A stretch of 64,000 bases of DNA from Artemia franciscana (taxonomy: Eukaryota; Arthropoda; Branchiopoda; Anostraca; Artemiidae): assembly GCF_032884065.1 (NCBI RefSeq), contig NC_088867.1:22946281-23010280 (forward strand). The letters run 5' to 3'. Below are positions 14,259 through 46,269 of the stretch, one piece after another (positions within the stretch are counted from its first letter, which is position 1; the number at the start of each line of letters is the position of its first letter). The notes under the pieces were generated by a model. It saw only the letters and a list, made by a program, of their open reading frames with translations. It searched no databases and was not told the origin of the DNA. The translations under genes and the position numbers were made by a program.

Positions 14259-14687
14259 CTAAAAATATGAAAAATTAGACTTGAAAATTTCTAACCAAGG
14301 TTGGATAAAACATTATTTTAATAATAAGACTATGTGAATAGTTGATTTAGTTGTCCAACCCTCATTTATATATACTAAATAATTTAAACGAATGAATACA
14401 ATACTGTTCGCAATTTTAGATTCCGAAAGGGTTAAAATCTATATATGGTTTCTCAATAATTTTTTTAAGCAATTTGGTCTTTTGCTCGATTACAATTTGA
14501 TCCTCTTCGGATCTATTAGATCCAAAGAGGATGTTTCTTGTAAAATTTGTACAGTATTAAATTATTATTTAAATATTTGGCATTCTATGTGTGAAATAAA
14601 GAAGTCTTCTTCTTCTTGATTGGTTGTCTGGAGACGCAAGTGCATAATCTCCATGCAATTTCTTTATTTATTCCACTTAAATCCTAA

Positions 14688-15731: not shown

Positions 15732-15752
15732 AGCAGGGACCAGTGGTTTAGC

Positions 15753-17348: not shown

Positions 17349-17352
17349 CTTC

Positions 17353-21710: not shown

Positions 21711-22455
21711 AACAGCAGAGATAATTGTAACAGATAATTGTGTATATAGTACAAAAGCAGAGACTTATTAATTGTTGTATATTTTGTCATCCTAAGCCAC
21801 CCTTTGCCTATTGTGCCAACTATAGTTCACTATCTTCTGATGTAATTGTTTGTTTTGCTGAAGACCGCACACTTGGCACTTGAAAAAATTATCCCCATCG
21901 TCAATACCTCGCTCTTTAACGTAAATTTAGCATAAAGAGCGAGGTATTAACGAGGGGGTGAACCCTTGTCAACACCTCGCTCTTTACGTTATTTTTTTTA
22001 GTACTTTCAAAAGACCTATTTATTGTAATTTAATGGCCTTTGGGATTCAGGGGTCACTCTTCTAGAATTGGAATAAAATTTTAACTTTATTGCATAGAGC
22101 TAGGTCTTGACCAGGGGACGAACCCCCCCCCCCCCATACAAGTTATAAGTTCTGTTGGTTTTAGTTTTAATATTGCTCCTTACTTCCAGTCGAAAAAACT
22201 TTTTTTTTAATTTTCTGATTGTTTTTTAAATTGGTCTCCACCACTTCATTATCAGAGGCATTATTTTATAAAAAATCACAAACTTGAACAAAGTAAAGAT
22301 TTTTTGTCGAAACATAATTGTGATGTAGTACAAGCAGATATAATTGTAACAGATAATTGTGTATGTAGTACAAAAGCAGAAACTTATTAATTGTTGTATA
22401 TTTTGTCATCCTAAGCCATTCTTTGCCCAAAGTGCCAACTATGGCACTATGCAAA
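21711..22455. repeat. Mixed short repeat fragments with stem-loop and C-run
   Basis: Contains scraps of the second LINE catalytic region (21755-21890 and 22370-22450), a 16-bp stem inverted repeat at about 21905-21950 (AATACCTCGCTCTTTA against TAAAGAGCGAGGTATT), a run of C near 22123-22135, and a piece of exon B (22226-22310, minus strand). No intact gene. Confidence 0.65.
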
Positions 22456-22463
22456 AATGAATA

Positions 22464-22541
22464 ATTTGATTATTTTTTGTCCAAACATAATTGTGACCAA
22501 TTGTTTCGTCAGTTCGAGCATGCAGCCTCCCGAAGCACACT
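22464..22541 (-). pseudogene. Anoctamin exon B, 5' fragment with acceptor
   Basis: The minus strand shows tttcatctttttag then TGTGCTTCGGGAGGCTGC, the acceptor and CxxGGC start of exon B, and continues through the TKQL/VTIMFGQK-type helix start before identity stops. It is the 5' complement of the fragments at 22226-22310 and 21501-21695. No complete exon can be made from this piece. Confidence 0.65.
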
Positions 22542-24404: not shown

Positions 24405-24973
24405 AGGTTAGGTCACTAAGTCACTAGTCACTAAATTTACGTTTTCTATGTAAAATATGTAAAATATCCGCTACCCAAACTTAAAACTGCCTAAAAGTAC
24501 GATTAAATTCCATCTCGGTTAATTTATGGGAAAGCCTTTTCCACTTATTATAGCAATGTAATTAAAATAAAATTTTACGTATTCAATTTTATTTATTATA
24601 AAATTTTTACTATTTCAATTTTATTTATTTAAATAGAACAAAACCTTTAGCCTCCATATAGTATATTAAACGCTAAATGGTTATTAAATGCGTTCAATAC
24701 GTTGTGGCAATTAAATGTTTCTCCTTGTACTATAAAATATTACATTCAGATGCCTACTGGTAGAGAATTTAGACCACTATGCCACTGCAGGTGTGGGTGG
24801 TTCTTACTTGATAACGTCGAACAAGCTGAACTTGTTCGACGAAATCAGGTTCCACCCAAGTTTTTAACCTGTTGCTAAATGGGTTCTGACTATAACTGAT
24901 ATGAATAGAATTGAATAATCATTACATAAAAATAAACACAAAAGCGAAAATTTATCAGAATCCAGGCACTAAC

Positions 24974-25173
24974 CTCTTCTTGGCGATATCCAAAAATAGT
25001 GTTATATTTTCCTGGCCTGCCAATAAATTTCCCTTTGAAGAATGCAACATAAAAAACTGACGCATATCTGTTGACAAATTCCAGCAAAATCAGTTTCACG
25101 GTGTAACTGTATTCGAATCGGTATTGGTACGATTATATTCCATCTCGGTTAATTTACGGGAAAGTCTTTTCCA
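24974..25173 (-). pseudogene. Anoctamin exon A, copy 1 (1-nt deletion)
   Basis: 200 nt. The donor side is intact (CAAGAAGAG then GTTAGTGCC) and the sequence KLILLEFVNRYASVFYVAFF is open. One A is missing where intact copies read gaaatcgg, so the first third is out of frame. Confidence 0.82.
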
Positions 25174-25618
25174 CTTATTATAGCAATGTAATTAAAATAA
25201 AATTTCACTGTTCAAATTTTACGTATTCAATTTTATTTATTATAAAAGTTTTTACTATTTCAATTTTATTTATTTAAATAGAACAAAACCTTTAGCCTCC
25301 ATATAGTATATTAAACGCTAAATGGTTATTAAATGAGTTCAATACGTTGTGTCAGTTAAATGTTTCTCCTTGTACTATAAAATATTACATTCAGATGCCT
25401 ACTGGTAGAGAATTTAGACCACTATGCCACTGCAGGTGTGGTTGGTTCTTACTTGATAAAGTCGAACAAACTGAACTTGTTCGACGAAATCAGGTTCCAC
25501 CCAAGTTTTTAACCTGTTGCTAAATGCGTTCAGACTATAACTGATATGAATAGAACTGAATAATCATTACATAAAAATAAACACAAAAGCGAAAATTTAT
25601 CAGAATCCAGGCACTAAC

Positions 25619-25817
25619 CTCTTCTTGGCGATATCAAAAATAGTGTTATATTTTCCTGGCCTGCCAATAAATTTCCCTTTGAAGAATGCAACATAAAAAA
25701 CTGACGCATATCTGTTGACAAATTCCAGCAAAATCAGTTTCACGGTGTAACTGTATTCGAATCGGTATTGGTACGATTATATTCCATCTCGGTTAATTTA
25801 CGGGAAAGTCTTTTCCA
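25619..25817 (-). pseudogene. Anoctamin exon A, copy 2 (two 1-nt deletions)
   Basis: 199 nt. One base is missing in gatatc-aaaaatag and one in cgaatcgg, which breaks the frame twice. Donor GTTAGT present. The adjacent hairpin also has one arm mismatch (gaacaaactg). Confidence 0.82.
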
Positions 25818-26262
25818 CTTATTATAGCAATGTAATTAAAATATAATTTCATTGTTCAAATTTTACGTACTCAATTTTACTTAATATAAAAGTTTTTACT
25901 ATTTCAATTTTATTTATTTAAATAGAACAAAACCTTTAGCCTCCATATAGTATATTAAACGCTAAATGGTTATTAAATGCGTTCAATACGTTGTGGCAAT
26001 TAAATGTTTCTCCTTGTACTATAAAATATTAAATTCAGATGCCTACTGGTAGAGAATTTAGACCACTATGCCACTGCAGGTGTGGGTGGTTCTTACTTGA
26101 TAACGTCGAACAAGCTGAACTTGTTCGACGAAATCAGGTTCCACCCAAGTTTTTAACCTGTTGCTAAATGGGTTCTGACTATAACTGATATGAATAGAAT
26201 TGAATAATCATTACATAAAAATAAACACAAAAGCGAAAATTTATCAGAATCCAGGCACTAAC

Positions 26263-26463
26263 CTGTTCTTGGCGATATCCAAAAATAGTGTTATATTTTC
26301 CTGGCCAGCCAATAAATTTCCCTTTGAATAATGCAACATAAGAAACTGACGCATATCTGTTGACAAATTCCAGCAAAATCAGTTTCACGGTGTAACTGTA
26401 TTCGAAATCGGTATTGGTACGATTATATTCCATCTCGGTTAATTTACGGGAAAGTCTTTTCCA
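26263..26463 (-). CDS. Anoctamin (TMEM16) exon A, copy 3 (open)
   Basis: 201 nt, 67 codons, phase 0 at both ends, with candidate acceptor gctataataag and donor GTTAGT. It starts WKRLSRKLTEMEYNRTNTDF and includes RYASVSYVALFKGKFIGWPG. The YxAFFKGxFxGxPG signature is the start of anoctamin helix 5. Changes from the commonest version are VSY for VFY, ALF for AFF, GWPG for GRPG and a final EQ for EE. The Phe-to-Leu and Arg-to-Trp changes fall in the conserved motif, so this copy may be drifting. Confidence 0.8.
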
Positions 26464-26907
26464 CTTATTATAGCAATGTAATTAAAATAAAATTTCACTG
26501 TTCAAATTTTACGTATTATATTTTATTTATTATAAAAGTTTTTACTATTTCAATTTTATTTAATTAAATAGAAGAAAACCTTTAGCCTCCATATATTATA
26601 TTAAACGCTAAATGGTTATTAAATACGTTCAATACGTTGTGGCAATTAAATGTTTCTCCTTGTACTATAAAATATTACATTCAGATGCCTACTGGTAGAG
26701 AATTTAGACAACTATGCCACTGCGGGTGTGGGTGGTTCTTACTTGATAACGTCGAACAAGCTGAACTTGTTCGACGGAATTAGGTTCCACCCAAGTTTTA
26801 ACCTGCTGCTAAATGGGTTCTGACTATAACTGATATGAATAGAATTGAATAATCATTACATAAAAATAAACACAAAAGCGAAAATTTATCAGAATCCAGG
26901 CACTAAC

Positions 26908-27108
26908 CTCTTCTTGGCGATATCCAAAAATAGTGTTATATTTTCCTGGCCTGGCAATCAATTTCCCTTTGAAGAATGCAACATAAAAAACTGACGCATA
27001 TCTGTTGACAAATTCCAGCAAAATCAGTTTCACGGTGTAACTGTATTCGAAATCGGTATTGGTACGATTATATTCCATCTCGGTTAATTTACGGGAAAGT
27101 CTTTTCCA
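26908..27108 (-). CDS. Anoctamin (TMEM16) exon A, copy 4 (open)
   Basis: 67 codons, phase 0-0, donor GTTAGT, with FYVAFFKGKLIARPGKYNTI. It differs from copy 11 at KLIA for KFIG. Its nearest relative is copy 7, 1901 bp away, within the three-monomer block duplication. Confidence 0.82.
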
Positions 27109-27547
27109 CTTATTATAGCAATGTAATTAAAATAAAATTTCACTTTTCAAATTTTACGTATTCAATTTTATTTATTATAAAAGTTTTTACTATTTCAATT
27201 TTATTTGTTTAAATAGAACAAAACCTTTAGCCTCCGTATAGTATATTAAACGCTAAATGGTTATTAAATGCGTTCAATACGTTGTGGCTATTAAATGTTT
27301 CTCCTTGTACTATAAAATATTACATTCAGATGCCTACTGGTAGAGAATTTAGACCACTATGCCACTGCGGGTGTGGGTGGTTCTTACTTGATAACGTCGA
27401 ACAAGCTGAACTTGTTCGACTAAATCAGGTTCCACCCAAGTTTTTAACCTGTTGCTAAATGGGTTCTGACTATAACTGATATGAAAAGAATTGAATAATC
27501 ATTACATAAAAATAAACACAAAAGCGAAAATTTATTAGAATCCAGGC

Positions 27548-27732
27548 ACAAAAATAGTGTTATATTTTCCTGACCTGCCAATAAATTTCCCTTTGAAGAA
27601 TGCAACATAAAAAACTGACGCATATCTGTTGAAAAATTCCCGCAAAATCAGTTTCACGGTATAACTGTATTCGAAATCGGTATTGGTACGATTATATTCC
27701 ATCTCGGTTAATTTACGGGAAAGTCTTTTCCA
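27548..27732 (-). pseudogene. Anoctamin exon A, copy 5 (donor deleted)
   Basis: A 22-bp deletion (ccaggcac joined to aaaaatag) removes the last codons, YRQEE, and the whole GTTAGT donor. This exon cannot be spliced at its normal 3' border. The same deletion is in copy 8, so it predates the block duplication. Confidence 0.83.
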
Positions 27733-28163
27733 CTTATTATAGCAATGTAATTAAAATAAAATTTTACGTATTCAATTTTATTTATTATAAAAGATTTTAC
27801 TATTTCAATTTTATTTATTTAAATAGGACAAAACCTTTAGCCTCCATATAGTATATTAAACGCTAAATGGTTATTAAATGCGTTCAATACGTTGTGGCAA
27901 TTAAATGTTTCTCCTTGTACTATAAAATATTACATTCAGATGCTTACTGGTAGAGAATTTAGACCACTATGCCACTGCAGGTGTGGGTGGTTCTTACTTG
28001 ATAAAGTCGAACAAGCAGAACTTGTTCGACGAAATCAGGTTCCACCCAAGTTTTTAACCCGTTGCTAAATGGGTTCTGACTATAACTGAAATGAATAGAA
28101 TTGAATAATCATTACATAAAAATAAACACAAAAGCGAAAATTTATCAGAATCCAGGCACTAAC

Positions 28164-28364
28164 CTCTTCTTGGCGATATCCAAAAATAGTGTTATATTTT
28201 CCTGGCCTGCCAATCAATTTCCCTTTGAAGAATGCAACATAAGAAACTGACGCATATCTGTTGACAAATTCCCGCAAAATCAGTTTCACGGTGTAACTGT
28301 ATTCGAAATTGGTATTGGTACGATTATATTCCATCTCGGTTAATTTACGGGAAAGTCTTTTCCA
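28164..28364 (-). CDS. Anoctamin (TMEM16) exon A, copy 6 (open)
   Basis: 67 codons with NTNFEYS for NTDFEYS, LILREFVN for LILLEFVN, VSYVAFF and KLIGRPG. Donor GTTAGT and candidate acceptor are intact. Nearly identical to copy 9. Confidence 0.82.
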
Positions 28365-28808
28365 CTTATTATAGCAATGTAATTAAAATAAAATTTCACT
28401 GTTCAAATTTTACGTATTCAATTTTATTTATTATAAAAACTTTTACTATTTCAATTTTATTTATTTAAATCGAACAAAACCTTTAGCCTCCATATAGTAT
28501 ATTAAACGCTAAATGGTTATTAAATGCGTTCAATACGTTGTGGCAATTAAATGTTTCTCCTTGTACTATAAAATATTACATTCAGATCCCTACTGGTAGA
28601 GAATTTAGACCACTATGCCACTGCGGGTGTGGGTGGCTCTTACTTGATAACGTCGAACAAGCTGAACTTGTTCGACGGAATTAGGTTCCACCCAAGTTTT
28701 AACCTGCTGCTAAATGGGTTCTGACTATAACTGATATGAATAGAATTGAATAATCATTACATAAAAATAAACACAAAAGCGAAAATTTATCAGAATCCAG
28801 GCACTAAC

Positions 28809-29009
28809 CTCTTCTTGGCGATATCCAAAAATAGTGTTATATTTTCCTGGCCTGGCAATCAATTTCCCTTTGAAGAATGCAGCATAAAAAACTGACGCAT
28901 ATCTGTTGACAAATTCCAGCAAAATCAGTTTCACGGTGTAACTGTATTCGAAATCGGTATTGGTACGATTATATTCCATCTCGGTTAATTTACGGGAAAG
29001 TCTTTTCCA
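28809..29009 (-). CDS. Anoctamin (TMEM16) exon A, copy 7 (open)
   Basis: 67 codons, as copy 4 except FYAAFF for FYVAFF. Splice borders intact. Confidence 0.82.
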
Positions 29010-29450
29010 CTTATTATAGCAATGTAATTAAAATAAAATTTCACTTTTCAAATTTTACGTATTCAATTTTATTTATTATAAAAGTTTTTACTATTTCAAT
29101 TTTATTTGTTTAAATAGAACAAAACCTTTAGCCTCCGTATAGTATATTAAACGCTAAATGGTTATTAAATGCGTTCAATACGTTGTGGCTATTAAATGTT
29201 TCTCCTTGTTCTATAAAATATTACATTCAGATGCCTACTGGTAGAGAATTTAGACCACTATGCCACTGCTGGTGTGGGTGGTTCTTACTTGATAACGTCG
29301 AACAAGCTGAACTTGTTCGACTAAATCAGGTTCCACCCAAGTTTTTAACCTGTTGCTAAATGGGTTCTGACTATAACTGATATGAAAAGAATTGAATAAT
29401 CATTACATAAAAATAAACACAAAAGCGAAAATTTATTAGAATCCAGGCAC

Positions 29451-29633
29451 AAAAATAGTGTTATATTTTCCTGACCTGCCAATAAATTTCCCTTTGAAGA
29501 ATGCAACATAAAAAACTGACGCATATCTGTTGACAAATTCCCGCAAAATCAGTTTCACGGTATAACTGTATTCGAAATCGGTATTGGTACGATTATATTC
29601 CATCTCGGTTAATTTACGGGAAAGTCTTTTCCA
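29451..29633 (-). pseudogene. Anoctamin exon A, copy 8 (donor deleted)
   Basis: Carries the same 22-bp deletion over YRQEE and the donor as copy 5. Otherwise close to it. Confidence 0.83.
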
Positions 29634-30064
29634 CTTATTATAGCAATGTAATTAAAATAAAATTTTACGTATTCAATTTTATTTATTATAAAAGTTTTTA
29701 CTATTTCAATTTTATTTATTTAAATAGGACAAAACCTTTAGCCTCCATATAGTATATTAAACGCTAAATGGTTATTAAATGCATTCAATACGTTGTGGCA
29801 ATTAAATGTTTCTCCTTGTACTATAAAATATTACATTCAGATGCTTACTGGTAGAGAATTTAGACCACTATGCCACTGCAGGTGTGGGTGGTTCTTACTT
29901 GATAAAGTCGAACAAGCAGAACTTGTTCGACGAAATCAGGTTCCACCCAAGTTTTTAACCCGTTGCTAAATGGGTTCTGACTATAACTGAAATGAATAGA
30001 ATTGAATAATCATTACATAAAAATAAACACAAAAGCGAAAATTTATCAGAATCCAGGCACTAAC

Positions 30065-30265
30065 CTCTTCTTGGCGATATCCAAAAATAGTGTTATATTT
30101 TCCTGGCCTGCCAATCAATTTCCCTTTGAAGAATGCAACATAAGAAACTGACGCATATCTGTTGACAAATTCCCGCAAAATCAGTTTCACGGTGTAACTG
30201 TATTCGAAATTGGTATTGGTACGATTACATTCCATCTCGGTTAATTTACGGGAAAGTCTTTTCCA
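30065..30265 (-). CDS. Anoctamin (TMEM16) exon A, copy 9 (open)
   Basis: 67 codons, as copy 6 with MECNRT for MEYNRT. Splice borders intact. Confidence 0.82.
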
Positions 30266-30710
30266 CTTATTATAGCAATGTAATTAAAATAAAATTTCAC
30301 TGTTCAAATTTTACGTATTCAATTTTATTTATTATAAAAACTTTTACTATTTCAATTTTATTTATTTAAATCGAACAAAACCTTTAGCCTCCATATAGTA
30401 TATTAAACGCTAAATGGTTATTAAATGCGTTCAATACGTTGTGGCAATTAAATGTTTCTCCTTGTACTATAAAATATTACATTCAGATCCCTACTGGTAG
30501 AGAATTTAGACCACTATGCCACTGCGGGTGTGGGTGGCTCTTACTTGATAACGTCGAACAAGCTGAACTTGTTCGACGAAATCAGGTTCCACCCAAGTTT
30601 TTAACCTGTTGCTAAATGGGTTCTGACTATAACTGATATGAATAGAATTGAATAATCACTACATAAAAATAAACACAAAAGCGAAAATTTATCAGAATCC
30701 ATGCACTAAC

Positions 30711-30908
30711 CTCTTCTTGGCGATCCAAAAATAGTGTTATATTTTCCTGGCCTGGCAATCAATTTCCCTTTGAAGAATGCAACATAAAAAACTTACGCAT
30801 ATCTGTTGACAAATTCCAGCAAAATCAGTTTCACGGTTTAACTATATTCGAATCGGTATTGGTACGATTATATTCAATCTCGGTTAATTTACGGGAAAGT
30901 CTTTTCCA
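30711..30908 (-). pseudogene. Anoctamin exon A, copy 10 (3 nt lost in two places)
   Basis: 198 nt: ggcgatccaaa lacks two bases and gaatcgg lacks one. The losses add up to a multiple of three, but most of the exon between them is out of frame, including the AFFKG motif. Confidence 0.82.
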
Positions 30909-31353
30909 CTTATTATAGCAATGTAATTAAAATAAAATTTCACTGTTCAAATTTTACGTATTCAATTTTATTTATTATAAAAGTTTTTACTATTTAAATT
31001 TTATTTATTTAAATAGAACAAAACCTTTAGCCTCCATATAGTATATTAAACGCTAAATGGTTATTAAATGCGTTCAATACGTTGTGGCAATTAAATGTTT
31101 CTCCTTGTACTATAAAATATTACATTCAGATGCCTACTGGTAGAGAATTTAGACCACTATGCCACTGCAGGTGTGGGTGGTTCTTACTTGATAAAGTCGA
31201 ACAAGCTGAACTTGTTCGACGAAATCAGGTTCCACCCAAGTTTTTAACCCGTTGCTAAATGGGTTCTGACTATAACTGATATGAATAGAATTGAATAATC
31301 ATTACATAAAAATAAACACAAAAGCGAAAATTTATCAGAATCCAGGCACTAAC

Positions 31354-31554
31354 CTCTTCTTGGCGATATCCAAAAATAGTGTTATATTTTCCTGGCCTGC
31401 CAATAAATTTCCCTTTGAAGAATGCAACATAAAAAACTGACGTATATCTGTTGACAAATTCCCGCAAAATCAGTTTCACGGTGTAACTGTATTCGAAATC
31501 GGTATTGGTACGATTATATTCCATCTCGGTTAATTTATGGGAAAGTCTTTTCCA
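31354..31554 (-). CDS. Anoctamin (TMEM16) exon A, copy 11 (open)
   Basis: 67 codons with LILREFVNRYTSVFYVAFFK and KFIGRPGKYNT. Donor GTTAGT. It combines features of the L and R types, as expected if monomers exchange sequence. Confidence 0.82.
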
Positions 31555-31999
31555 CTTATTATAGCAATGTAATTAAAATAAAATTTCACTGTTCAAATTT
31601 TACGTATTCAATTTTATTTATTATAAAATTTTTTACTGTTTCAATTTTATTTATTTAAATTGAACAAAACCTTTAGCCTCCATATAGTATATTAAACGCT
31701 AAATGGTTATTAAATGCGTTCAATACGTTGTGGCAATTAAATGTTTCTCCTTGTACTATAAAATATTACATTCAGATGCCTGCTGGTAGAGAATTTAGAC
31801 CACTATGCCACTGCGGGTGTGGGTGGTTCTTACTTGATAACGTCGAACAAGCTGAACTTGTTCGACGAAATCAGGTTCCACCCAAGTTTTTAATCCGTTG
31901 CTAAATGGGTTCTGACTATAACTGATATGAATAGAATTGAATAATCATTACATAAAAATAAACACAAAAGCGAAAATTTATCAGAATCCAGGCACTAAC

Positions 32000-32126
32000 C
32001 TCTTCTTGGCGATATCCAAAAATAGTGTTATATTTTCCTGGCCTGCCAATAAATTTCCCTTTGAAGAATGCAACATAAAAAACTGACGCATATCTGTTGA
32101 CTAATTCCCGCAAAATCAGTTTCACG
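32000..32126 (-). pseudogene. Anoctamin exon A, copy 12, 3' part (split by hAT insertion)
   Basis: 127 nt up to the hAT target duplication. The remaining 74 nt of this exon lie at 40108-40181. Together they make exactly 201 nt, so apart from the hAT this copy is the right length. It reads LRELVNRYASVFYVAFFKGK. Confidence 0.85.
32119..32126. repeat. 8-bp target-site duplication, left (hAT)
   Basis: GTTTCACG directly before the left TIR; the identical octamer is at 40100-40107. Eight bases is the hAT hallmark. Confidence 0.93.
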
Positions 32127-32141
32127 CTGGGTTGCCACCTG
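32127..32141. repeat. hAT left terminal inverted repeat
   Basis: CTGGGTTGCCACCTG, a perfect match to the reverse complement of the other end over 15 bp; the next base differs. Confidence 0.92.
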
Positions 32142-33474
32142 CTCCTGTCCAAAGTGTGCTATATTTCTCGAGAACAGGGTGCTACATAAGTGCTACGCAA
32201 ATTTTTTGCTAAATAAGCAATTTTCGCGTAATCCTGCTTGGTGTTGATCAATTAAAACTTTTAGTCGCGTTTTCAATCACACGAAGATTACAGCATTTCT
32301 ACGAATGCCTTTGTTATTTTAACTAAAGCATTGTACGCACATGCGTAATAAGCTGTGTGGCGCTTTTAGTTGCCAGCGATAGAAAAATTGTACTCTTTTT
32401 AGTACATTTTTTTCAAAGTAGTGAGTTGGTAGTATATTTGAAAAAAGTAGTACTTTTGCGGTACATTTTAAGAAAAGCAGTGCTTTTTGAAAACAAATGT
32501 ACTCTTTCTTCCAAAGGTGATCTAGCTGTATTTTGTCATAAATATGTTAACAGATTACCAATGAAGACAGCTATTCAATGAAGACAGCTATACAAAATTA
32601 AGAAACATCTAAATGTCTAAAAACATTTGTTTTTGATATGTTATTCAAAACTTCCAAAAATTATTTCAAGGTGTTTCAAGCGGGATCACACGAGGTTATA
32701 ATAAATTATTGTTAGTAAGAATCAATTACAATTCGATAGTAGTTTACGCTAGTTTTGAAAAGTCTTTATCTTTCAGTGAACTGAACCTGTGGTATTGAAC
32801 TGAGGTAGTTTTTAGAGGCAAAGATTTCCGAGGCTAAAGGTTTTTCTAGCGGAAAACCAAGAGAAAAATACACTCGGATTTAAGCAATGCGTGAAGCATG
32901 TGGTCGAAAGCAGGACTATTATTCGACTCATCTAGCAGAACTACGCAGTAAAGAGGCTTTAAAGGCACAGTAAACTTGACTAGGCAACTTTCGGTCATCA
33001 AACCGGCCTTGGGGGCTTAGATAAATGTACAGGGACTTATTGTCGACAGGACCCCCCTTCTTTGTCATCTCGAAACTCCTCCTTATTGTTCCCAGAGCAA
33101 GCTGGCAGGCCCTTGCCCCTTATGCACTGTAATTGTGCACTTATGTATTGTAAAAGTTCGCCTTTTTACGTGTAGACCATAGTCAAACGTCACACCGGTA
33201 AAACGGCGTGGGTTCGATTCCTAGTTGCGGCACACAAATTTTTTGCTTTTTTTTCTACTAAACCAAAAATCGAATTTTCGGAAACTGCAATGGTCGTAAC
33301 TAGAATGTTTCTTACTCTCAATATCGACTCAGGGCATATTCTTGATATGTCAGCTAGCTCCCCGAGTCAACTTTGAGTCAAGTTTACTGTTCCTTTACGG
33401 ATGCTCAGCTTTTTTTTTCCAAATCACTGGTTTATTAAAGATCATTTTCGAAAAAAATAAGAATGACTCTTGAA
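32142..33474. other. hAT left non-coding end
   Basis: Two direct GTGCTAC heptamers lie at about 32180-32200. The stretch near 33160-33235 has a box-B-like GGGTTCGATTCC followed by a tRNA-like 3' end and a T-run, but no convincing box A. Otherwise I see no gene. It contains the 3' side of the transposase transcript (minus strand). Confidence 0.5.
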
Positions 33475-35853
33475 TCAGTCGCAAAAATCTATTTCCTCTT
33501 CCTCATTTTGATCGACGCCAGTTGCGTTGCTAAAAATGAGATTTACTTTCGTGGATCTCGATGCTCCCTTCCACTTCTGGAATGAAAGACGAAGACTGTC
33601 ATCTATTTTCCAGGAGTTGCTGCTTCCAGCATCGGCGGAGCGTCTGATCACATATTGCTTTGCAAACATAAGTGCAGTCACAGTTTCAGTTTGGAGATTA
33701 TTTCTAATTTTCGTTTTCAAATTGTTCAAAATAGAAAATTGCCTTTCTGCGCTTGCGCTGGAATGAGGAAGAGCACACAATGTCAACATGAACTTGGAAA
33801 TTTCCAAATATACTGGCCTAGATATGCAGTCCTTGACGTCACTCAGCTGCTTCCAAAAGATTCCAGGATCATCGCTGGGTTCAAATTTCGGGAGATCCTC
33901 TTTACTGTCGGCCAGCTTAGTCCACTGAACTTCCAGCTTATCTCGTAGAGTGTCACTTTCACCTTCGCTGTCGCCAAGCAGGTTCGGGAAACGGATCATG
34001 AGTGGAACAATAGTATCCACTTGTCCAGAAACGGCCACGGTAGGATCTATACAACGAAGGTTCACCAATGTTTCATCTTTGTAATCAATTCTTGTTGATA
34101 CCTGCAAGCACATTTCGACGAGAAAGCTCAAACAGTTTGTATGGATTGTTTGCACTTGCTGCCTATTCAGCTGACCTGCGCTAGACGATGTAGCGATATA
34201 GTTCAGGGTGTTCGGCCCAAGCTTGAGCTCCTCCAGTTTTAGGAAATTTGGTGGAATTAGTTTGACCCTGAATAGATCTCCTGCGATTGCTATTGCTTCT
34301 TTTGTCACAAAGCATCTCAAAAAAGCAAGATAAGTCACTCTAAAACTCTGCAAGAGCCTATGAATGCGAGTTTTACTGCTCTGGAACTCTATATTCAGTT
34401 CGTTTACCTTTTCAAGGACAAAGGCAATAAAGTACAGGTAACCTTTAATCTTTGGGTCCTTCATACAAGCCAAAATCCGACTTGCCTTTTCTTTCGAAGA
34501 TTTATCTCCTGCTGCATCACCTTCTCCGTGGCTTGCGAAGAACCGCATCAGTGCACTCCACTGTTCTAGGATTCTCTTGACAGAGGCTTCCAATGATAGC
34601 CATCTTGTGTTTGCCACTTGAAGTAGGCGGTGGCTCTCTACACGTGCAAATTCTTGACACTTTTTCAACTCGTCCTGGCGCTTTGGGCTGCTTGCAATAT
34701 AGTTTACAATGTCGTGAATGAATAATTCCAAACCCTCTGGTAGCTTTTTGGCGGCGTATGTTGCACATAACGCGAGCGAGTGACTTGTACAACCAAGAAT
34801 GAACAAATTTGGTACTTCAACTTTAAGCAACACCCCTAGTCCTTTCACAGACCCAGTATTCACACTAGCATTATCGAAGCCTATACCCATTAAATTTTGT
34901 ATAGGTATACCAAGGTCCGAAAGACATTTCATAATCAGGTTCTTCTGACCGGCACTTGACGCGTCGTGCACGTCAACAAGACCCAAAAAATCTTCACGAA
35001 CATTGTAATTAGCATCCACATACTTTGCAATGATGACCAAAACTTTGGCCCATGACTTGTCCGTAGATTCATCTACAATAATGGCGAACTTGTTATTCCT
35101 TAACCAATTTGCAAGCTGCACTTTTTCCTCTGTGGCAAGAACATTCTTGATTATTCCAGTTGTCTTGGTTCTCGACGAGGCTAATGCTTGGCAAACAGCA
35201 TCATTTGGGAAACATGATTTCATGACTTGTAGCAATGAGTCAGTTTTTCTTATAGAAATATCCTCTTTTGCAACCCAACCTGCCAGGCGTAACTCAGCAT
35301 CTTTAACTGAATCGTCAAAAAGCTGCTTCTTCTGCACTTCCGGTGTTTGCACAAACTGGTCAACAGGCACTGTGCATGTCATAGCCTGCACGTTTTGCTT
35401 GTGAAATGTAGACTTGACATGTCTTTTGACATTGTAGATACTTCCTCGAATATCTTTCTTGCATAAATTACAATGAGCATGCTGACAGTTCATATCAGAT
35501 TTACTAAAAAACCCACCTAGTTCAGGATCCATTTTCCACTTATCACAGAATTTATTTCGATTTTTGATTTTTCTGGGCTTGTTGGATATTTTCAGCTTCT
35601 TCTGGTTAGTATTCTGTTTGTTTTGCTTCAGACTACTCTTGCGTTTTCTCGCTTCTTGATTATCAGTTGAGCTAGATTCAGCTGTTTCTTCATCATCAGA
35701 TGATTCAGAAGAGGAAGGGGAACTGTCGAGTTTTACAACTGATTCAAAATCAGAAGACGAATCGGATTTATTCTTGTTCTTCTTGGCTAGGAACTGAGTC
35801 AATGTACTTTGTTTCATGGCTGCAAAAATAGAAAAAGACATTTGAACAACCAT
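33475..35853 (-). CDS. hAT transposase (792 aa, uninterrupted)
   Basis: Cuts and pastes the surrounding element in the nucleus. In order: a Ser-rich acidic and basic N-terminus (residues about 1-110); a BED/TTF-like zinc finger (about 105-155, HCNLCKKDIRG with later RHVKSTFH); an RNase H-like catalytic domain beginning FAIIVDESTDKSW (first Asp) and GIGFDNASVN (second Asp), then the CTSHSLAL Cys/His motif; an alpha-helical insertion; and the C-terminal hAT dimerisation region LPHSSASAERQFSILNNL with the catalytic Glu. Family proteins are commonly 600-800 aa. The start at 35853 could instead be the Met at 35817 (MKQSTLTQFLAKK). No stop or frame break, so it may be active. Confidence 0.93.
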   Translation of the reverse strand: MVVQMSFSIFAAMKQSTLTQFLAKKNKNKSDSSSDFESVVKLDSSPSSSESSDDEETAESSSTDNQEARKRKSSLKQNKQNTNQKKLKISNKPRKIKNRNKFCDKWKMDPELGGFFSKSDMNCQHAHCNLCKKDIRGSIYNVKRHVKSTFHKQNVQAMTCTVPVDQFVQTPEVQKKQLFDDSVKDAELRLAGWVAKEDISIRKTDSLLQVMKSCFPNDAVCQALASSRTKTTGIIKNVLATEEKVQLANWLRNNKFAIIVDESTDKSWAKVLVIIAKYVDANYNVREDFLGLVDVHDASSAGQKNLIMKCLSDLGIPIQNLMGIGFDNASVNTGSVKGLGVLLKVEVPNLFILGCTSHSLALCATYAAKKLPEGLELFIHDIVNYIASSPKRQDELKKCQEFARVESHRLLQVANTRWLSLEASVKRILEQWSALMRFFASHGEGDAAGDKSSKEKASRILACMKDPKIKGYLYFIAFVLEKVNELNIEFQSSKTRIHRLLQSFRVTYLAFLRCFVTKEAIAIAGDLFRVKLIPPNFLKLEELKLGPNTLNYIATSSSAGQLNRQQVQTIHTNCLSFLVEMCLQVSTRIDYKDETLVNLRCIDPTVAVSGQVDTIVPLMIRFPNLLGDSEGESDTLRDKLEVQWTKLADSKEDLPKFEPSDDPGIFWKQLSDVKDCISRPVYLEISKFMLTLCALPHSSASAERQFSILNNLKTKIRNNLQTETVTALMFAKQYVIRRSADAGSSNSWKIDDSLRLSFQKWKGASRSTKVNLIFSNATGVDQNEEEEIDFCD

Positions 35854-36943
35854 TTGTCAATGGCTGAAAATTAATGGGATCAAAATTAAAAGAACAGCTT
35901 TTTGTTATTGAGATTGAGATTGATAGACAGGGTCTCCAGGTTTGTAGGCCTACCACAACATATGCAGCATTTGTTTGTTAAATATTAATATACTGGGATT
36001 TTTAGTTTGAAACAAAACCTTAAAACCATGTAAAAATTACAGATGTAATTTTTTAGAATTAGTTTAGGCTAATTTATAATTTAATGTAATTTCAAAAAAT
36101 ATAATCTTGTAATTTATTGTGATGTTTTCAGAATTTTATAGTGTTTCCTTATGGGGACTTGAACAACTAAATATTTATCCACACCAGTCCCAAATATTTA
36201 GATTTATTCTACCTTATTCTTCTGTCATTTAAGCATTATCTTCCAGTTCTTTGTATATTTGGAATGTTTGATAAATTTGCCATCTTTTTCAAATTCTAGA
36301 ATTGTATATTATCAGTTATTGTCTATCAACAGCCAGTCCACAAATTTGCAGTGCCAAGCACATTGAATATTCATTTTTTCAGCTGATAAATTAAAACAAA
36401 TAAAGAAGATATTTTTTAAAGAAAAACACAGAGCCATATTTATACCTAAGATAAGTAGAAATAACATCTTAATGGTCAAACTAGATCACCAGAAGTTACT
36501 ACAAATGAAGAGATAAAACCTAAAAGATTCTGAAATTAATATAAGTGATAACAACCCACAATGATATAGAAGTATACCATTATGAATTAATTATAAAAAA
36601 GTAAAAGCTAAAATAAATAATTGAGTCAAACTTAACATAAACAGAAATTACTACAATCAGCACTATGGCTATTGCATAACTCAAAGTATTTTAAAAGCTG
36701 TTGGGTCAGTTGTGTTTTATTGAAAGTTGTATGTATTTTGAACACTAGTTTAATTTGTAAAAAATACATAACAAACGAGAAGATGAAATAAAATCACCAT
36801 AGCAATTAAGATGAGTGAAAAAAAATAATAAAAATAAACTAATTATTTGATATAGATTTGTATTGGTTTGTCAAAATCTTGGCGATTCAAAATAGGCTAC
36901 AAGATTTTATTTAACAACAATTTTTGAATTGTAAGTGTTATAA

Positions 36944-37078
36944 GTCCTGTGGTGGCGCAGTGAGTTTGACCTTAGCTTGGTAATACGGGACCCAAAGATC
37001 GAATCATGCAGAAGGAATGCACTGCAGGGCCGACGCACGGACCTTAGTATTCAAAAAGCGTCGTTAATCCGATACAAT
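36944..37078 (+). mobile_element. Short tRNA-derived SINE inside the hAT
   Basis: 135 bp flanked by identical 12-bp direct repeats TAAGTGTTATAA (36932-36943 and 37079-37090). The head reads GTGGTGGCGCAGTGAGTTTG, a good box A, and then a degraded box B, AGATCGAATCAT. It is unlike the SINE at 18849-19162 in sequence and length. Confidence 0.75.
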
Positions 37079-37679
37079 TAAGTGTTATAACTTTAAAAGA
37101 AAATGTTTAAATTTAGTTTGGTTTCCTGTGAAGCACACTCATGCAATGGCCTTCTGAAGGCTCAGGGGTGGTTCAGTAGCCCTTTTTCTGTCTGTTTAAT
37201 AGTTTCCACTTGTTTTAGATATATTTTTTCTTTTGTTTTTCATTGGTGTCAGCATCTGTTATCTTTGACTATTTGTTTCAATTTCTCTTTGATTTTGTAC
37301 TGCTGCCTTTGAAAAGAGGCTACTTCGATAGCATCAATTTTTTTTCAAAACTTGGATGTATACATTCTGTTTTGATTTTCATATAAAAAAAAAAATTAGA
37401 GGTATCAGCAACACCTTGGTGAGGAAAGTTCCTCATGACCTTTACATCAAGGATAAGGGTACAATTTTTGGGAAAAGAAGATTTTGAAAGATATCGTTTA
37501 ATTATTTTAATAAAACAGCAACAATTGTCTACCTTGTTTTTTTTCAAAAAACCTTTTTCTTGCTATTTCCACCAAAAAACTGGGAAAATAATGAAATGGC
37601 CCTCCCAGACCTTGAAAAAATATACCCTGTGCCCCTTGAGTTTTCATGAATTGTTGCTTTTGCTGCAAATTTGTATTGC

Positions 37680-38470
37680 AACGAGTTTGTTTTGACTGCT
37701 CAGATCCATGAAAAATTCAGTTTCATTCCCTTAGCCACTCTTATGATCTTTTACATTAGGCCCTTTTGACAAATTGGATGTACATGATGCCCTAGTTCAA
37801 CATCCCTCTCAGCATTTCCTAAGTTTCAACTTCTCATCCTTAGCTAGTTCTCCAATAGTGCAGATGCAAACAACTGGATGCATATACTGATTTCATTTGG
37901 ATATTGCAGATATCCACATTTCATGAAAATCTCAACTTAATATCCTTTGCTATTCCTGAGACATTGCAACTGCAACTTTATTACGAGCTTGATGTATTTT
38001 TTGTCTTTTGATTTTCTTCAAAATCCATGTCAATATTCCCTGAAAGTTCTATAGTGACTTAATATTCCAAGAAAATTTAAACTTAATGCTCATGGCTGTT
38101 TCTGAGAATTTAAACCTCTTAGCTGTTCCTGAGATATTGCAGATATGATAATTTTATAATCCAGATGCGTATAGTGTCTTTTGGCTCCTTCAACATTTTT
38201 TGAAATTTCAACTCATTCCCTGTGCTTTTTCTCAAATATTGCCCTTATGCTGTATTGACAACAAGAATGTGCATAGTGTATTTTGATTTTGTTCATTGTA
38301 TCTCTTAACATTCTCCAAAAGTTTCAACTTCAAACCCTTACCTGCTCTTAAGATATTACTGAGTACTCTTTTTACAACTTAGTGCAAATACTGGCTGATT
38401 TTCCCTGAAAATTTTAACTTAATGTCCTTAGTTGTTCCTGAAATGCCACACAAGCTCCCAATTTCCATTT
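37680..38470. repeat. Decayed tandem repeat of ~110-130 bp units
   Basis: Successive stretches repeat a theme: cttttgatttt, then a CCCTGAAAATTTCAACTTAA-like line, then CCTTAGCTGTTCCTGAGATATTGCAGAT. I count five to seven diverged units. No coding content. Its age contrasts with the intact transposase. Confidence 0.55.
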
Positions 38471-39964
38471 TAAGCCATATGTTCAGGCTAATGCTGATTT
38501 TTATTATTTATGGTTCCTTCCCCATGGACTGTGGGGCTCAAATTGTCTTTGTAGGCATATGTACTGAAACTAATGCCTATTTTAAATAAAATGGCTATCT
38601 TAAAATTGTGATTGGATGTCTTTGAAGGTTATGTGGTATCAATTCGCGTAAAAGGCAAGGGAGGGGGATTGGTTGTACTTCATTTTCTTTTAACTAGAAA
38701 AAAGATGCTAGAACTTTCAGCTTCCAATCAAATGAGGCCCCTATGAAATTTCTGCACTCACCTGTTTCTTTGACTCTAGGAATAAACTTTAAATAATACA
38801 TTGAAGGTATAACGATCTTTACCATGGCAATGCTAGAGCATTGCCTCTAATTTCAAAATAAGTTGATACAGTTGCTGCATTTATGGACCAAGAGCAAGAT
38901 TTTAGCAGATTGATTTTCAGTGCATGTGATTTTTGCATTTTCATTTCCTCTCTCAGTAATTTAATTTTCTCGTTAATCTTCCAGTTCCAAAATTTGTATA
39001 CATTTTTTCTTATTATTGCCATTTTTGGGATTTAAATAAGCTGGTAAACTCACAGGACAGAGTTGCAAGGTTATCTATATTTTTAATTAATTCAGAAATT
39101 GAGCAGGTGAAATGGCTGTACTGAATGACAAACAAATTTTAAGCATTTTGAAGTTTCTGTAGTTTTTATGTAGTTTATTCTCATTGTCTTTCAACTTATC
39201 TTTTATTAATTGTATTCTTATCATTTATTTACCTGAAATAATGAGCTGTTAAAACTAAAGTACTTTGATTGTAATAATAGTGATACTTTATCTAATGTGT
39301 CTGAAGTTACTCCTTCCCCTCCATATCATTTCTATTCTTCAGGTTTTTTTTAATAAAAAAAAGGAGTTTGTAAAGAAATTAGGTTGAATAGACCTTTTCT
39401 ACTTGAAGAAAAAATTTAATATAGATGGTGTCCCACTCCAAGTGGTATCTTAACAAGTTATGAGAAGTGTCAATGAGCAAGGGGTATGGAACTTCCCCCT
39501 CCAAGATTTGGAAAACTCTTTTAGGGGGGGGGGAATTATACTGAAAAATTTTGTCTCCATGGTTTTCTATAAAAAAACAAATAAAATTATCTCTTAGATT
39601 TTTATAGATACATTGTGTCCCATCCCCCTATTTTATGTGAAGTTATTCTAATGCGCTAGAGGCATTGTGAGGGTCTAAATCCTTTCATACTGCATAAATT
39701 AGAACCAACAAAACTTAAATTATTGCAGTAAGCTGTCAGTAAGTCTCACCTGTTTACCTCCATTAAAATCCACACCTCAAACACAATTTGAAATTGGCGC
39801 CAAGCGAGTTTCCTTTACCTGAGGAAAAATCAAGTTGCTTCAACAGAAGTTGAAATTCCCACTTAAGAGAACTTATCAAACTAGAAAGCTCAGCAGAAGA
39901 TCCTCCTCCAGTCTTTTAAATCCCCTCACTTGCTGACACTGGTCCTAATATTTTTTTTCCCGAA

Positions 39965-40084
39965 AATTGTAGCACTAAGGTGCTACATTTTTCCAGACTT
40001 TCCGAAATAGTGCTACATTTTACCCTGATCGTGCTACGGTGCTACATAGGCAAAAATAGTGCTACAATTAGCACTATAGTGCTA
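39965..40084. promoter_or_regulatory. hAT right subterminal GTGCTAC cluster
   Basis: Six direct GTGCTAC and one inverted GTAGCAC lie within 120 bp of the right TIR, against two direct copies at the left end. hAT transposases bind short subterminal repeats, so these are likely binding sites. Confidence 0.65.
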
Positions 40085-40099
40085 CAGGTGGCAACCCAG
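40085..40099. repeat. hAT right terminal inverted repeat
   Basis: CAGGTGGCAACCCAG, exact reverse complement of 32127-32141. Confidence 0.92.
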
Positions 40100-40107
40100 G
40101 TTTCACG
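40100..40107. repeat. 8-bp target-site duplication, right (hAT)
   Basis: GTTTCACG, identical to 32119-32126. Confidence 0.93.
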
Positions 40108-40181
40108 GTGTAACTGTATTCGAAATCGGTATTGGTACGATTATATTCCATCTCGGTTAATTTACGGGAAAGTCTTTTCCA
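40108..40181 (-). pseudogene. Anoctamin exon A, copy 12, 5' part
   Basis: 74 nt from the candidate acceptor side to the hAT target site. Its partner is 32000-32126. Confidence 0.85.
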
Positions 40182-40626
40182 CTTATTATAGCAATGTAAT
40201 TAAAATAAAATTTCACTGTTCAAATTTTACGTATTCAATTTTATTTATTATAAAAGTTTTTACTATTTCAATTTTATTTATTTAAATAGAACAAAACCTT
40301 TAGCCTCCATATAGTATATTAAACGCTAAATGGTTATTAAATGCGTTCAATACGTTGTGGCAATTAAATGTTTCTCCTTGTACTATAAAATATTACATTC
40401 AGATGCCTACTGGTAGAGAATTTAGACCACTATGCCACTGCAGGTGTGGGTGGTTCTTACTTGATAACGTCGAACAAGCTGAACTTGTTCGACGAAATCA
40501 GGTTCCACCCAAGTTTTTAACCTGTTGCTAAATGGGTTCTGACTATAACTGATATGAATAGAATTGAATAATCATTACATAAAAATAAACACAAAAGCGA
40601 AAATTTATCAGAATCCAGGCACTAAC

Positions 40627-40822
40627 CTCTTCTTGGCGATATCCAAAAATAGTGTTATATTTTCCTGGCCTGCCAATAAATTTCCCTTTGAAGAATGCAA
40701 CATAAAAAACTGACGCATATCTGTTGACAAATTCCAGCAAAATCAGTTTCACGGTGTAACTGTATTCGAAATCGGTATTGGTACGATTATATTCCATCTC
40801 GGTTAATTTACGGGAAAGTCTT
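40627..40822 (-). pseudogene. Anoctamin exon A, copy 13 (5' end cut at array edge)
   Basis: 196 of 201 nt, open from LSRKLTEMEYNRT to YRQEE with donor GTTAGT. The array stops at 40822, so the first codons and the acceptor are missing. Being the first copy on the minus strand, it could not be entered by normal splicing. Confidence 0.8.
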
Positions 40823-40929
40823 GCATATAACTAAAAGATAGGATTGTTAGATCATGTAAATCTATACTTTCTATAATCAATGGCCCAGTAAATGCAGACA
40901 CTACCTCACAATCTGATGACACTACCTTG

Positions 40930-43260: not shown

Positions 43261-43425
43261 TTTTGTGATTTCCAATGCCCTCCACAGTTTGATAGACTGG
43301 CCTCTGATAGCGTGTCAACAATCTCTTCGCCTCCAATCTAATGTCAATGACATTGGAGATGAAGAAAATTAATGGAGCCAATGGAACGGCTGTCACAAAA
43401 ATGGTGCAAAACGAAAACTGTAAAA
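43261..43425 (-). CDS. Anoctamin (TMEM16) exon C
   Basis: The minus strand shows the acceptor gtttcttttag, then TT and codons for LQFSFCTIFVTAVPLAPLIF, FISNVIDIRLEAKRL and RYQRPVYQTVEGIG. This is the anoctamin helix 7 region, whose family form is FVAAFPLAPL...NNxxExRxDA. The two leading bases complete the codon left open by exon B (A|TT = Ile), so B and C are consecutive exons. The 3' border is uncertain: GTGATG after 43261 is a weak donor, and a LINE fragment abuts it. An exon B copy lies 1.7 kb upstream (45115-45353). Confidence 0.78.
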
Positions 43426-43639
43426 CTAAAAGAAACAGAAAACTGAAGACTTTCGTTTATTATGCACAAAAAACACAAGTGTCAAAGCATTTTCTTACAA
43501 GACTAGTCTGACAGAAAGTATTTTACGATGCTGATCGCTTTAATGTTGCCAGAAAAAATTCCGAGTTTAGGAAGAAGAAAAAAAGAATAATAATATAAAA
43601 ATACTCGATTGATAGATTTCCCTTCTTTTTTTTTTTAAG

Positions 43640-43845
43640 AAGCCATAGTGTAATGGTTCTCAACCGATTTTGTGAATGTGACGTTATTTTCAACATAAAT
43701 GTTTTTTTTCAAAATTAAGGCTCTAGAGTATAGTGAGCCAAAGGGTACATGTCCTGCACAAGACCCACCAAGATTCTCAAGCCCTCCCCCCTCCCAGTGA
43801 GGCATGGACCCCATGTTGGGAATCGCGGTTGCAAACTAAAAGAAA
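43640..43845. mobile_element. Probable hAT-type MITE, degraded
   Basis: The left end reads TAATGGTTCTCAACCGATTTTG, and the right end, reverse-complemented, is similar (GCAACCGCGATTCCCAACATG). The form xxGGTTCTCAACC with inverted ends is typical of short non-autonomous hAT elements in animals. Ends are diverged and I cannot see a target duplication. Confidence 0.4.
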
Positions 43846-44689
43846 CAGTGATCTACCAATTCTTGACATGTATGATTTTCCCCCTCCCTTTTCTTGGCAT
43901 CCATTGGGGTAGTAAGATTACGCATAGCCCAAAAGACTGCAAGCAGACGATTATTATGGTATTATTACGTTTCAAATGATACAGATGAGCGAGAGTTTTT
44001 TTCCATTCTGACGTGTTCAGTTGGGTTCCTCCCGCTATCAAGAGAGGTGGCGGATAGAAAATAAGGACAGGTGATGTTTTGAGAAAGATGGTACACTGTT
44101 AAATAAGAGGAAACAATCGAAAAAAGGTATCAGGTTTTAATTCTGCTAATTTCAGCTTATATTGAATTTTGTCTTTTATTTTCGGTTTTTCTTTTGTTTT
44201 ATTTTAGTTTTTAATTTTTTTTCAAATTGACTCTCCGCGTTGTTATTAAAATGAAAACCCTTTATCAAAAGAAAATATCAAAATGTAGGATGATTGAAGG
44301 GCTCCCATTTTAATGCCCTTCTATTAAACTGGTCGGATAAAATATATTTTCCAAAACATTGGGGGAGGGGTATTTTTTTCAATGTCCTAAATGAAATACC
44401 AAAAAGGTATTTTCAAATGTAGGGGGATGCGGACCGATGATTCTGCACCCATTGATTTGTCCTAAAATGCATATTAGTTTAAATATACAATTCCATTACT
44501 CAATCAATCTCATTGGCTAAAAGCTGCAAATTGGGCTATGTACGCTGGCTCTATAATCAGCCAATCACGATACAGGGTAGGTGTATTGAATCCATACCAA
44601 TTTTTGGCTGCGGTTTATTCTAATATTTTGTAAATTATTTGATGATCTCATCGCTATCTGTAAATATCCCGCACATAGAAGCACTTTTA
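43846..44689. other. No gene recognised
   Basis: AT-rich, T-runs, and short G-rich stretches (gggggaggggt near 44360). Open frames of 62-76 codons without recognisable features. Confidence 0.5.
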
Positions 44690-45800
44690 TCTTTTTGAGT
44701 TTTTAAGAATTCTTGCTGTTGGTTTCTTTCTGACGAAGGATACAAGTGATAAATGATACAAATCAAATGCTACCCCACTGTCTACTTTTATTAGAATTGG
44801 TTTAAAAAATCAATTTTCTTTAAAGGCCTATCAGTCTGATCCTCATGAATTTTAAATATTTTGTTGTATATGTATACAAATGATTCCTAAAGATACACAG
44901 ACAAATTCCAAATTCAAGTCTAATTCTAAGCGAATTACTAGCTTAAACATGATTAAAACTTTCCACTAAAGAAAGACAAACAATAAATATTGACACCGTC
45001 TTGAATTTTCTTTTTAAATCAGATGCTTCGTAAGATTTACAGTCAAAATCTTACACATAAGAACTGAGTGGAAAAACCACCAAATACTCTATTGATTGCG
45101 TGGATGTTACTTACTCATTGCCACGTTCAGATTCCTAAGAACTGCAGGAGTAAAACTACTTAAAGCATAGTCCTCCCACCATGGCCTTTTCTTCTCATCT
45201 GTTACATCCGCTTCGATTGGTCTCTAAATCTTCATAATAGGAGGCACTATTTTATAAAAAAAACACGAACTTGGACAAATTGATCATTTTTTGGCCAAGC
45301 ATAATTATGGCCAATTGTTTGGTCAACTCGAGCATACAGCCTCCCAGAGCACACTAAAAATATGAAAAATTAGACTTGAAAATTTCTAACCAAGGGAGCT
45401 ACAGGGACCAAGGGAACAAAGGGAGCCAAGGGCTATGAAAACTCTTTAAGCTTCATTTTCTTGTTTTTAACTCATCTAATGGATACCTTATATACCGTGC
45501 TGCTTACAGAGCCTGAATTTACAGGCATTGACTTTACAGTCAAAGGATAGAACCAAAAATCTCGAACCCCTTATTTTGAGCTATAAATTTTTAATAATTT
45601 TCACTAAATTTACGTTTTCTATGTAAAATATCCGCTACCCACACTGAAAACTGCCTAAAAGTCCCTAGATTTTTCTGAAGTACCCAAGACAATCTAAATA
45701 CATTAAATAATTCACTGTTTACTACTGCATTTATTCTAATTCACCCTCTTCTCTGAACTAATTAAATACAAAAACAAGTTTTTTCCCGAGAATTATTTCG
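44690..45800. repeat. Composite repeat, copy gamma (exon B with both introns)
   Basis: Left part matches 21090-21500 and 23700-24080 (downstream intron of exon B); right part matches 19925-20220, 22551-22840 and the window end (upstream intron). Unlike the 3.87-kb array units, it keeps the full upstream intron stretch with gaaaactctttaagcttcatt. It is therefore nearer the ancestral arrangement. Confidence 0.75.
45115..45353 (-). pseudogene. Anoctamin exon B copy (frameshift and stop)
   Basis: 239 nt, with acceptor tttcatatttttag and donor GTAAGTAA intact. A T-run has one extra base, and MKFWR has become MKI-stop (plus-strand ctctaaatc). The acceptor side reads CALGGCMLELTKQLAIIMLG. Dead unless skipped. 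On the minus strand it is the exon B immediately upstream of exon C. Confidence 0.8.
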
Positions 45801-46260
45801 TATATTACGAAATAATATTAATTATATCAATAATTGCTCTTAATATTAAAGAGCAATACCTCGCTCTTTAACGTAAATTCAGCATAAAGAACAAGGTATT
45901 AAGGAAGGGGTGAACCCCCTTGTCAACACCTCGCTCTTTACGCTATTTTTTTAGTACTTTCAAAAGACCTATTTATTCTAATTTAATGGCCTTGGGGATT
46001 CAGGGGTCATTCTTCAAGAATTGTAATAAAATTTTAACTTTATTGCATAGAGCTAGGTATTGACCAGGGGACGAACCCCCCCCCCCATATAGGTAATAAG
46101 TTCTGTTCGTTTTACTTTTAATGTTGCTCCTTACTTCCAGTTGAAAAAACTTATTTTTTATTTTAATTTTTTGATTGTTTTTTTTTAATAATGATTACAA
46201 ATTCGGCACCCCTTCCATGGAAAATTCACTTCCCCCACAATAAATTCCTCCTACGTAGCC
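45801..46260. repeat. Stem-loop repeat, copy 2, with C-run
   Basis: Matches 21895-22240: AATACCTCGCTCTTTA with a weaker partner arm (TAAAGAACAAGGTATT), then gacgaacccc with a C-run at 46076-46086. No gene. Confidence 0.6.
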
Positions 46261-46269
46261 CTCTCCCTG

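Follow-up and report, generated by a model that had tools for sequence, protein, structure and literature searches.

Organization of the exon A array

The window studied in this work is a stretch of 64,000 nucleotides (nt) of DNA of the brine shrimp Artemia franciscana (C5:22946281-23010280), and the genome searched is the assembly of this species (1.27 Gb, 6,468 contigs). The window carries 13 copies of a single exon, hereafter exon A, which lie head-to-tail on the minus strand with a period of ~645 bp. A first-pass annotation, made from the letters of the window, had described there a single-strand, 13-copy tandem repeat of an exon of the anoctamin (TMEM16) family, located at 24500..40822. 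Our search recovered this copy number and orientation (13 matches on C5, all on the minus strand). The assignment to this family, of ion-channel type, was confirmed too: exon A of copy 13 matches PF04547 with an E-value of 1.3e-19 and 70.9 bits (curated cut-off of 28), and the search for this family gave 89 matches in the A. franciscana genome and none in the 14 control genomes. The run is nevertheless interrupted by a hAT transposon (32127-40099) that splits copy 12; the successive copies are spaced by 645, 644, 646, 645, 610, 646, 645, 610, 646, 643, 646 and 8627 bp. The elements of the array are the following (window positions):

24497..32126, minus strand: main part of the array, ~645-bp monomers in tandem, copies 1 to 12, the last of which is split by the hAT transposon
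26504..30306, minus strand (approximate limits): higher-order duplication, two copies of a 1,901-bp block of three monomers
27550..27732, minus strand: copy 5, end of the exon and donor deleted
29451-29633, minus strand: copy 8, with a deletion identical to that of copy 5
30711..30908, minus strand: copy 10, frameshifted and containing stops
31354..31554, minus strand: copy 11, an example of internal copy, open, donor GTTAGT, AG and first codons derived from an interspersed element, AAGA junction at ~31549
32127..40099, no strand assigned: hAT transposon within exon A of copy 12, 7,973 bp, 15-bp inverted ends
33478..35856, minus strand: hAT transposase frame with DUF4371 and the hAT dimerisation domain (Pfam)
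40100..40822, minus strand: remainder of the array past the hAT transposon, with the first monomer (copy 13) and the 5' portion of the split copy 12
40176..40552, minus strand (first monomer): segment of the interspersed ~430-bp element that is present in every monomer, with relatives of 79-84% identity on many contigs
40627..40830, minus strand: copy 13, 204 nt, open, donor GTTAGT, the only exon A of the window with the native acceptor and the native start

The insertion in copy 12 is a hAT transposon, since a target duplication, terminal inverted repeats and a dimerisation domain are all present; the 8-bp duplication GTTTCACG flanks it at 32119-32126 and 40100-40107.

Native exon A is 204 nt long, with the start CTATCTTTTAG/TTATATG (the slash marks the splice border), which is common to copy 13, to the copy of contig C12 and to the anoctamin gene of contig C2. 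The first-pass annotation had attributed to each monomer the same 201-nt exon, a candidate acceptor and a GTTAGT donor. The exon is indeed shared, its length is not the native one, and the 201-nt version starts at an AG of the interspersed element. In the internal copies, exon sequence begins at about nt 9 (AAGA being nt 9-12), after ...ATAATAAGTGGAA. Among 37 monomers spanning at least unit positions 12-560 (eight partial ones of 45 matches were dropped), the eight bases ahead of the junction are AATAAGTG in 35 and AATACGTG in two. The acceptor claim fails for all window copies other than copy 13 (1/13 with the native acceptor), since the AG of these other copies is interspersed-element sequence. 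The donor claim largely stands, as GTTAGT is kept in 11 of the 13 copies (10 of the 12 near-complete ones and the copy 12 cut by hAT) and missing from two. Copies 3, 4, 6, 7, 9 and 11 are open as announced, and so is copy 13, which had been counted as damaged; seven of the 12 near-complete window copies are thus open over their full length and followed by GTTAGT. Besides copy 10, frameshifts are present in copies 1 and 2.

A single founding junction

Contig C12 holds one monomer only (C12:9385878-9386549), inside an ordered partial anoctamin gene, and in this copy the ~430-bp element runs on in 3' beyond the end of the tandem unit. The unit itself extends from about nt 9 of exon A into the element. 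The internal junction, GTGGAA-AAGA-CTTTCC, is made of the 5' side of the C12 copy (ATGC-AAGA-CTTTCC) and of its 3' side (GTGGAA-AAGA-GAATATT). Among the 37 near-complete monomers, 35 align through this AAGA junction, the two exceptions being the C12 copy and the 5'-most C5 copy. The single copy of C12 thus displays the state that preceded amplification. Furthermore, among 11 aligned dispersed relatives of the element, 10 reach the acceptor point and all 10 carry a C in place of the G of the monomer's AG; the internal "acceptor" is therefore a fortuitous substitution within a dispersed repeat.

Copies on other scaffolds

A search with a 253-bp query (exon and intron), in which 40 of 46 candidates were scored so that counts are lower bounds, found at least 40 copies of the monomer: 13 on C5, 24 on C13, two on C16 and one on C12. 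In addition, C16 carries a third copy, rearranged and partly deleted, and C13 a 5'-truncated one. C13 was not among the contigs listed by a search with the whole monomer, probably because this search scored the best 39 of 332 candidates. With at least 40 places in 1.27 Gb, the abundance is low for a satellite.

On C5, monomers at lag 3 reach 99.5% identity (two pairs), which corresponds to the 1,901-bp block; on C13, the highest values are 99.7% (lag 2) and 98.9% (lag 9). Multi-monomer blocks, such as those left by unequal exchange, are therefore present on both contigs. Mean identity is 95.3% within C5, 96.5% within C13 and 95.6% between the two arrays. At 16 sites, the two arrays are polymorphic for an identical pair of bases, and some of these sites are expected by chance since many further sites are variable (53 on C5 and 117 on C13); the two commonest changes at shared sites turn KFIG into KLIA. 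A one-base deletion is common to three C5 and three C13 copies, and it lies in an AAA run, could be recurrent and was not used as proof. A tree of the monomers groups the C12 copy with the 5'-most C5 copy (support 100/94) and implies six changes of array label for C5 and seven for C13, compared to 10.4 and 11.5 for shuffled labels; its well-supported branches force two and one changes, respectively, and many of its forks are weak. C13 and C16 have 241 bp of 3' flank in common (99.6%), and their 5' flanks are alike but in opposite orientation.

Tests for selection

In the 37 monomers, the distinct exon changes comprise 15 synonymous, 40 non-synonymous and two stop changes, compared to 17.7, 45.0 and 3.4 expected from the non-coding changes, i.e. 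a ratio of non-synonymous to synonymous rates (dN/dS-like) of 1.02 (p = 1). The values are two, 15 and two for the C5 subset (ratio 2.70, p = 0.28) and 13, 27 and one for the C13 subset (ratio 0.83, p = 0.60). The exon accumulated 0.297 distinct changes per site and the non-coding part 0.333, in agreement with the earlier statement that introns are as similar as exons. Equal rates at synonymous, non-synonymous and intron sites, one of the two outcomes that the same annotation had named as refuting it (the other being an absence of spliced reads from any array copy to exon B), are thus what we observed. Insertions and deletions are not depleted in the exon either (five events for 192 exon positions and 10 for 454 other positions).

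The annotation had also argued that retention of open frames in half of the copies kept an alternative-exon reading alive. A copy carries about 3.4 exon changes on average, for which a nonsense change is expected with a probability of 0.16; many open frames are therefore expected in a young array, and selection is not required to explain their retention. By these sequence statistics, the copies are decaying and no selection on the peptide they encode is detectable. The lineage was constrained before amplification, since dN/dS between the C12 and C2 genes is 0.20 over exons A-D (0.20 for A, 0.35 for B and 0.18 for C, D being not computable because its dS is saturated), a value to be taken with caution given the high dS.

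Anoctamin relatives and gene fragments around the array

The most similar ordered anoctamin gene among those examined is C2:12906094-12949209, which contains exons E1, E2, E3, E4, A, B, C and D; the anoctamin genes on C3 and C18 were outside the exon A comparison. In the exon B search, C2 ranked first among the matches that do not belong to the relic family (43%), and the joined A-B-C peptide of C2 matches anoctamin-6 (E-value of 1.8e-62) and anoctamin-1 (4.7e-62) of solved structure. In the C12 gene, the exons E4, A, B, C and D follow one another in this order. Several fragments of such a gene surround the array:

22441..22539, minus strand: broken start of an exon B downstream of the exon A array, with an in-frame stop
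43267..43271, minus strand: head-to-tail junction between a C12-like exon C (to C12:9412614) and the region upstream of a C12-like exon A (from C12:9383684)
43271..43456, minus strand: truncated anoctamin exon C (PF04547, 60.5 bits)
43272..46634, minus strand: B-C segment collinear with C12:9409138-9412614 in pieces of 94.5% and 88% identity, exon B being interrupted
63577..63795, minus strand: further exon B copy, open

Window 42678-40173 aligns with C12 over 2,530 bp (95%), and window 43266-40173, directly after the B-C segment, matches the exon A part of the C12 gene (C12:9383684-9386549). The order of these matches shows that the window is related to the C12 gene but rearranged. The upstream exons E1-E4 of the C2 gene have 14 matches in the genome, none of them on C5, and exons A, B and C are found there in shuffled order, for which reasons a complete gene on this contig was rejected. 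Similarly, exon C at 43 kb was considered as a part of an ordered gene and instead belongs to the head-to-tail junction of two C12-like segments. The predicted C5 protein QYM36_013390 (P0007) contains exon C twice, and none of the array exons is part of it. No long frame holding exon C was found at the four loci read (L043-L046), despite long open-frame values near the exon C matches.

The C12 gene was also considered as an intact parent, and this idea was weakened by its predicted model "anoctamin-2-like isoform X2" (P0001), which starts with an E3-like exon joined through a linker to exon B, leaves out E4 and A, and has as its last exon one shared with a cobalamin-binding protein. In this region (C12:9410412-9415547 and beyond), the sharing of the final exon with the cobalamin-binding protein (LOC136033646) suggests that the gene model is chimeric or that genes have fused. 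Matches to upstream anoctamin exons (59% for E1) were found at C13:37127287-37154100 on the minus strand, i.e. on another scaffold than the C12 gene; they may represent the detached first half of a paralog, or reflect an assembly break. Exons B and C of this anoctamin lineage also occur in many dispersed copies, on C519, C149, C11, C15 and C793, at C5:23.01-23.11 Mb and at C13:39.8 Mb, some of them in opposite orientations on one contig.

Origin of the array

We consider, with a probability of about 0.9, that the exon A array is a young tandem repeat of a gene fragment that arose by one founding duplication, spread by segmental rearrangement and decays neutrally, and that it is not a cluster of alternative exons. 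Most likely, the array has no function at the protein level. Of the two possibilities raised by the first-pass annotation, the first, satellite-like growth with capture of an exon, is thus the one supported by the founding junction, the occurrence on four scaffolds and the neutral pattern of changes. The following sequence of events would account for the data: (i) the ~430-bp element resided in the intron that follows exon A in a partial anoctamin gene similar to that of C12, where it is observed; (ii) one tandem duplication, probably by end joining or template switching to judge from the junction observed, joined nt 9-12 of exon A to the interior of the element via the 4-bp microhomology AAGA, giving the ~645-bp unit; (iii) the unit would have multiplied by unequal exchange, a mechanism suggested by the multi-monomer blocks; (iv) the arrays may have reached other scaffolds inside larger rearranged segments of the same gene, a route suggested by the flanks and the order of the fragments; and (v) the hAT transposon split the C5 array and the copies decay, as shown by the sequence statistics.

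Some observations weigh against this scenario or limit its support. The test on the array of the window is weak by itself, since it relies on 19 exon substitutions. Among the 37 monomers, 25 are open over their full length with a donor (two further frame-open copies have lost the exon end and the donor by deletion), a proportion that is also compatible with weak or recent use. The dS between the C12 and C2 genes is near saturation (proportion of synonymous differences, pS, of 0.66). Array labels are more clustered in the tree than in any of 500 shuffles, and therefore the arrays are not fully mixed. Finally, no clear microhomology was seen at the junction of a second array of the window, which contains exon B (see below).

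A role at the RNA level deserves mention, although we regard it as improbable. Tandem repeats derived from genes are sources of small RNAs in other animals. Sense or antisense transcripts across the exon A copies might likewise feed small RNAs against anoctamin-like genes and regulate the C12 gene, whose own exon would have been turned into a regulator. Neutrality at the protein level would be compatible with such a role. The array exons are very similar to the C12 exon (99% over 253 bp for copy 13), but nothing in the sequence calls for such a role and the monomers diverge freely. Even less probable is a set of interchangeable exons, in which a transcript of the locus would pick one exon A copy and join it to exon B. 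The seven open window copies with a donor, the in-frame AG/TGG that stands ahead of the internal copies and the predicted isoform X2, whose omission of exon A indicates that this exon may be optional in the C12 gene, are what such a cluster could show. However, the acceptors of all internal copies belong to the element, no match to E1-E4 was found on C5, the nearest exon B start on the downstream side is disrupted and the predicted C5 protein found includes no array exon. Furthermore, the coding ratio is close to 1, and a donorless copy was duplicated within a block just like the open copies. An assembly artefact inflating a single exon is scarcely credible: the published assembly mixes several technologies and leaves ~19% unanchored (PMC11492255), but the copies carry distinct variants, one of them contains a hAT transposon with its target duplication, the C13 and C16 copies have the same junction and the block structure is consistent.

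Exon B array and other features of the window

A second tandem array is present in the window:

1..17398, minus strand: exon B and a part of a long interspersed nuclear element (LINE) in tandem, period of ~3,867 bp, extending 2.8 kb to the left of the window

Its units are 99.1-99.4% alike and the LINE encodes an endonuclease, a reverse transcriptase and an RNase H. Within the window, the 5' part of the LINE is kept by the outermost unit only, and the array junction connects the intron after exon B to the interior of the LINE. Five exon B copies occur at the same ~3,867-bp spacing at C12:9294192-9309892 (based on exon positions only), and 74 matches to exon B were obtained genome-wide. With two arrays of similar build in a single window, exon A is thus not alone in its propensity for amplification, and units made of an exon and a mobile element seem prone to it.

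A 297-bp TA repeat (19621-19917, 97% matches) adjoins the end of the LINE array. The right part of the window contains (i) frames resembling those of a long terminal repeat (LTR) retrotransposon at 52442-57337 on the minus strand, among which 53739-55547 has reverse transcriptase and RNase H domains (Pfam), (ii) a DDE_Tnp_4 transposase frame at 59011-59628 on the plus strand, preceded by another frame at 58627-59007, and (iii) two overlapping frames of 212 and 94 amino acids at 62452-63319 on the plus strand, the 212-amino acid one being without Pfam match.

Comparison with known systems and significance

Dscam is a cluster of mutually exclusive exons. Like clusters of this type, the exon A array displays many similar exons in a row, in the same phase and on the same strand; unlike them, its internal copies are devoid of native acceptors, no host transcript unit was found and no selection was detected. 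As in anoctamin genes, exons A and C match PF04547 and exon B matches exon B of the C2 gene, whereas the window contains only shuffled A, B and C fragments and no gene.

Satellite or tandem-repeat DNA can be seeded by transposable elements or by other sequences (review PMC5615363). The exon A array resembles the satellites described there by its head-to-tail monomers, its one founding junction, its higher-order blocks, its presence on several scaffolds and the part of an element included in the unit. It differs from them by a recognisable coding exon, a low copy number (at least 40) and the unamplified copy on C12. On Drosophila Y chromosomes, duplications of subsets of exons and new satellites have been linked to microhomology-mediated repair, which is proposed to generate, possibly, the tandem duplications from which new repeats arise (PMC8794474). 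Unlike these duplications, the Artemia unit consists of one exon and an interspersed element. A narrow keyword query gave no literature match for satellite arrays made of exons or gene fragments, and we do not claim that they are unreported.

The way in which a tandem repeat starts is usually deduced once its founding event is no longer visible. Here, the single-copy state, the exact junction, the block expansions, the copies on other scaffolds and the later insertion of a transposon are readable in one assembly. The captured exon provides a gauge of when selection ended. This case also calls for caution in annotation, as open frames with canonical donors can multiply without being used exons.

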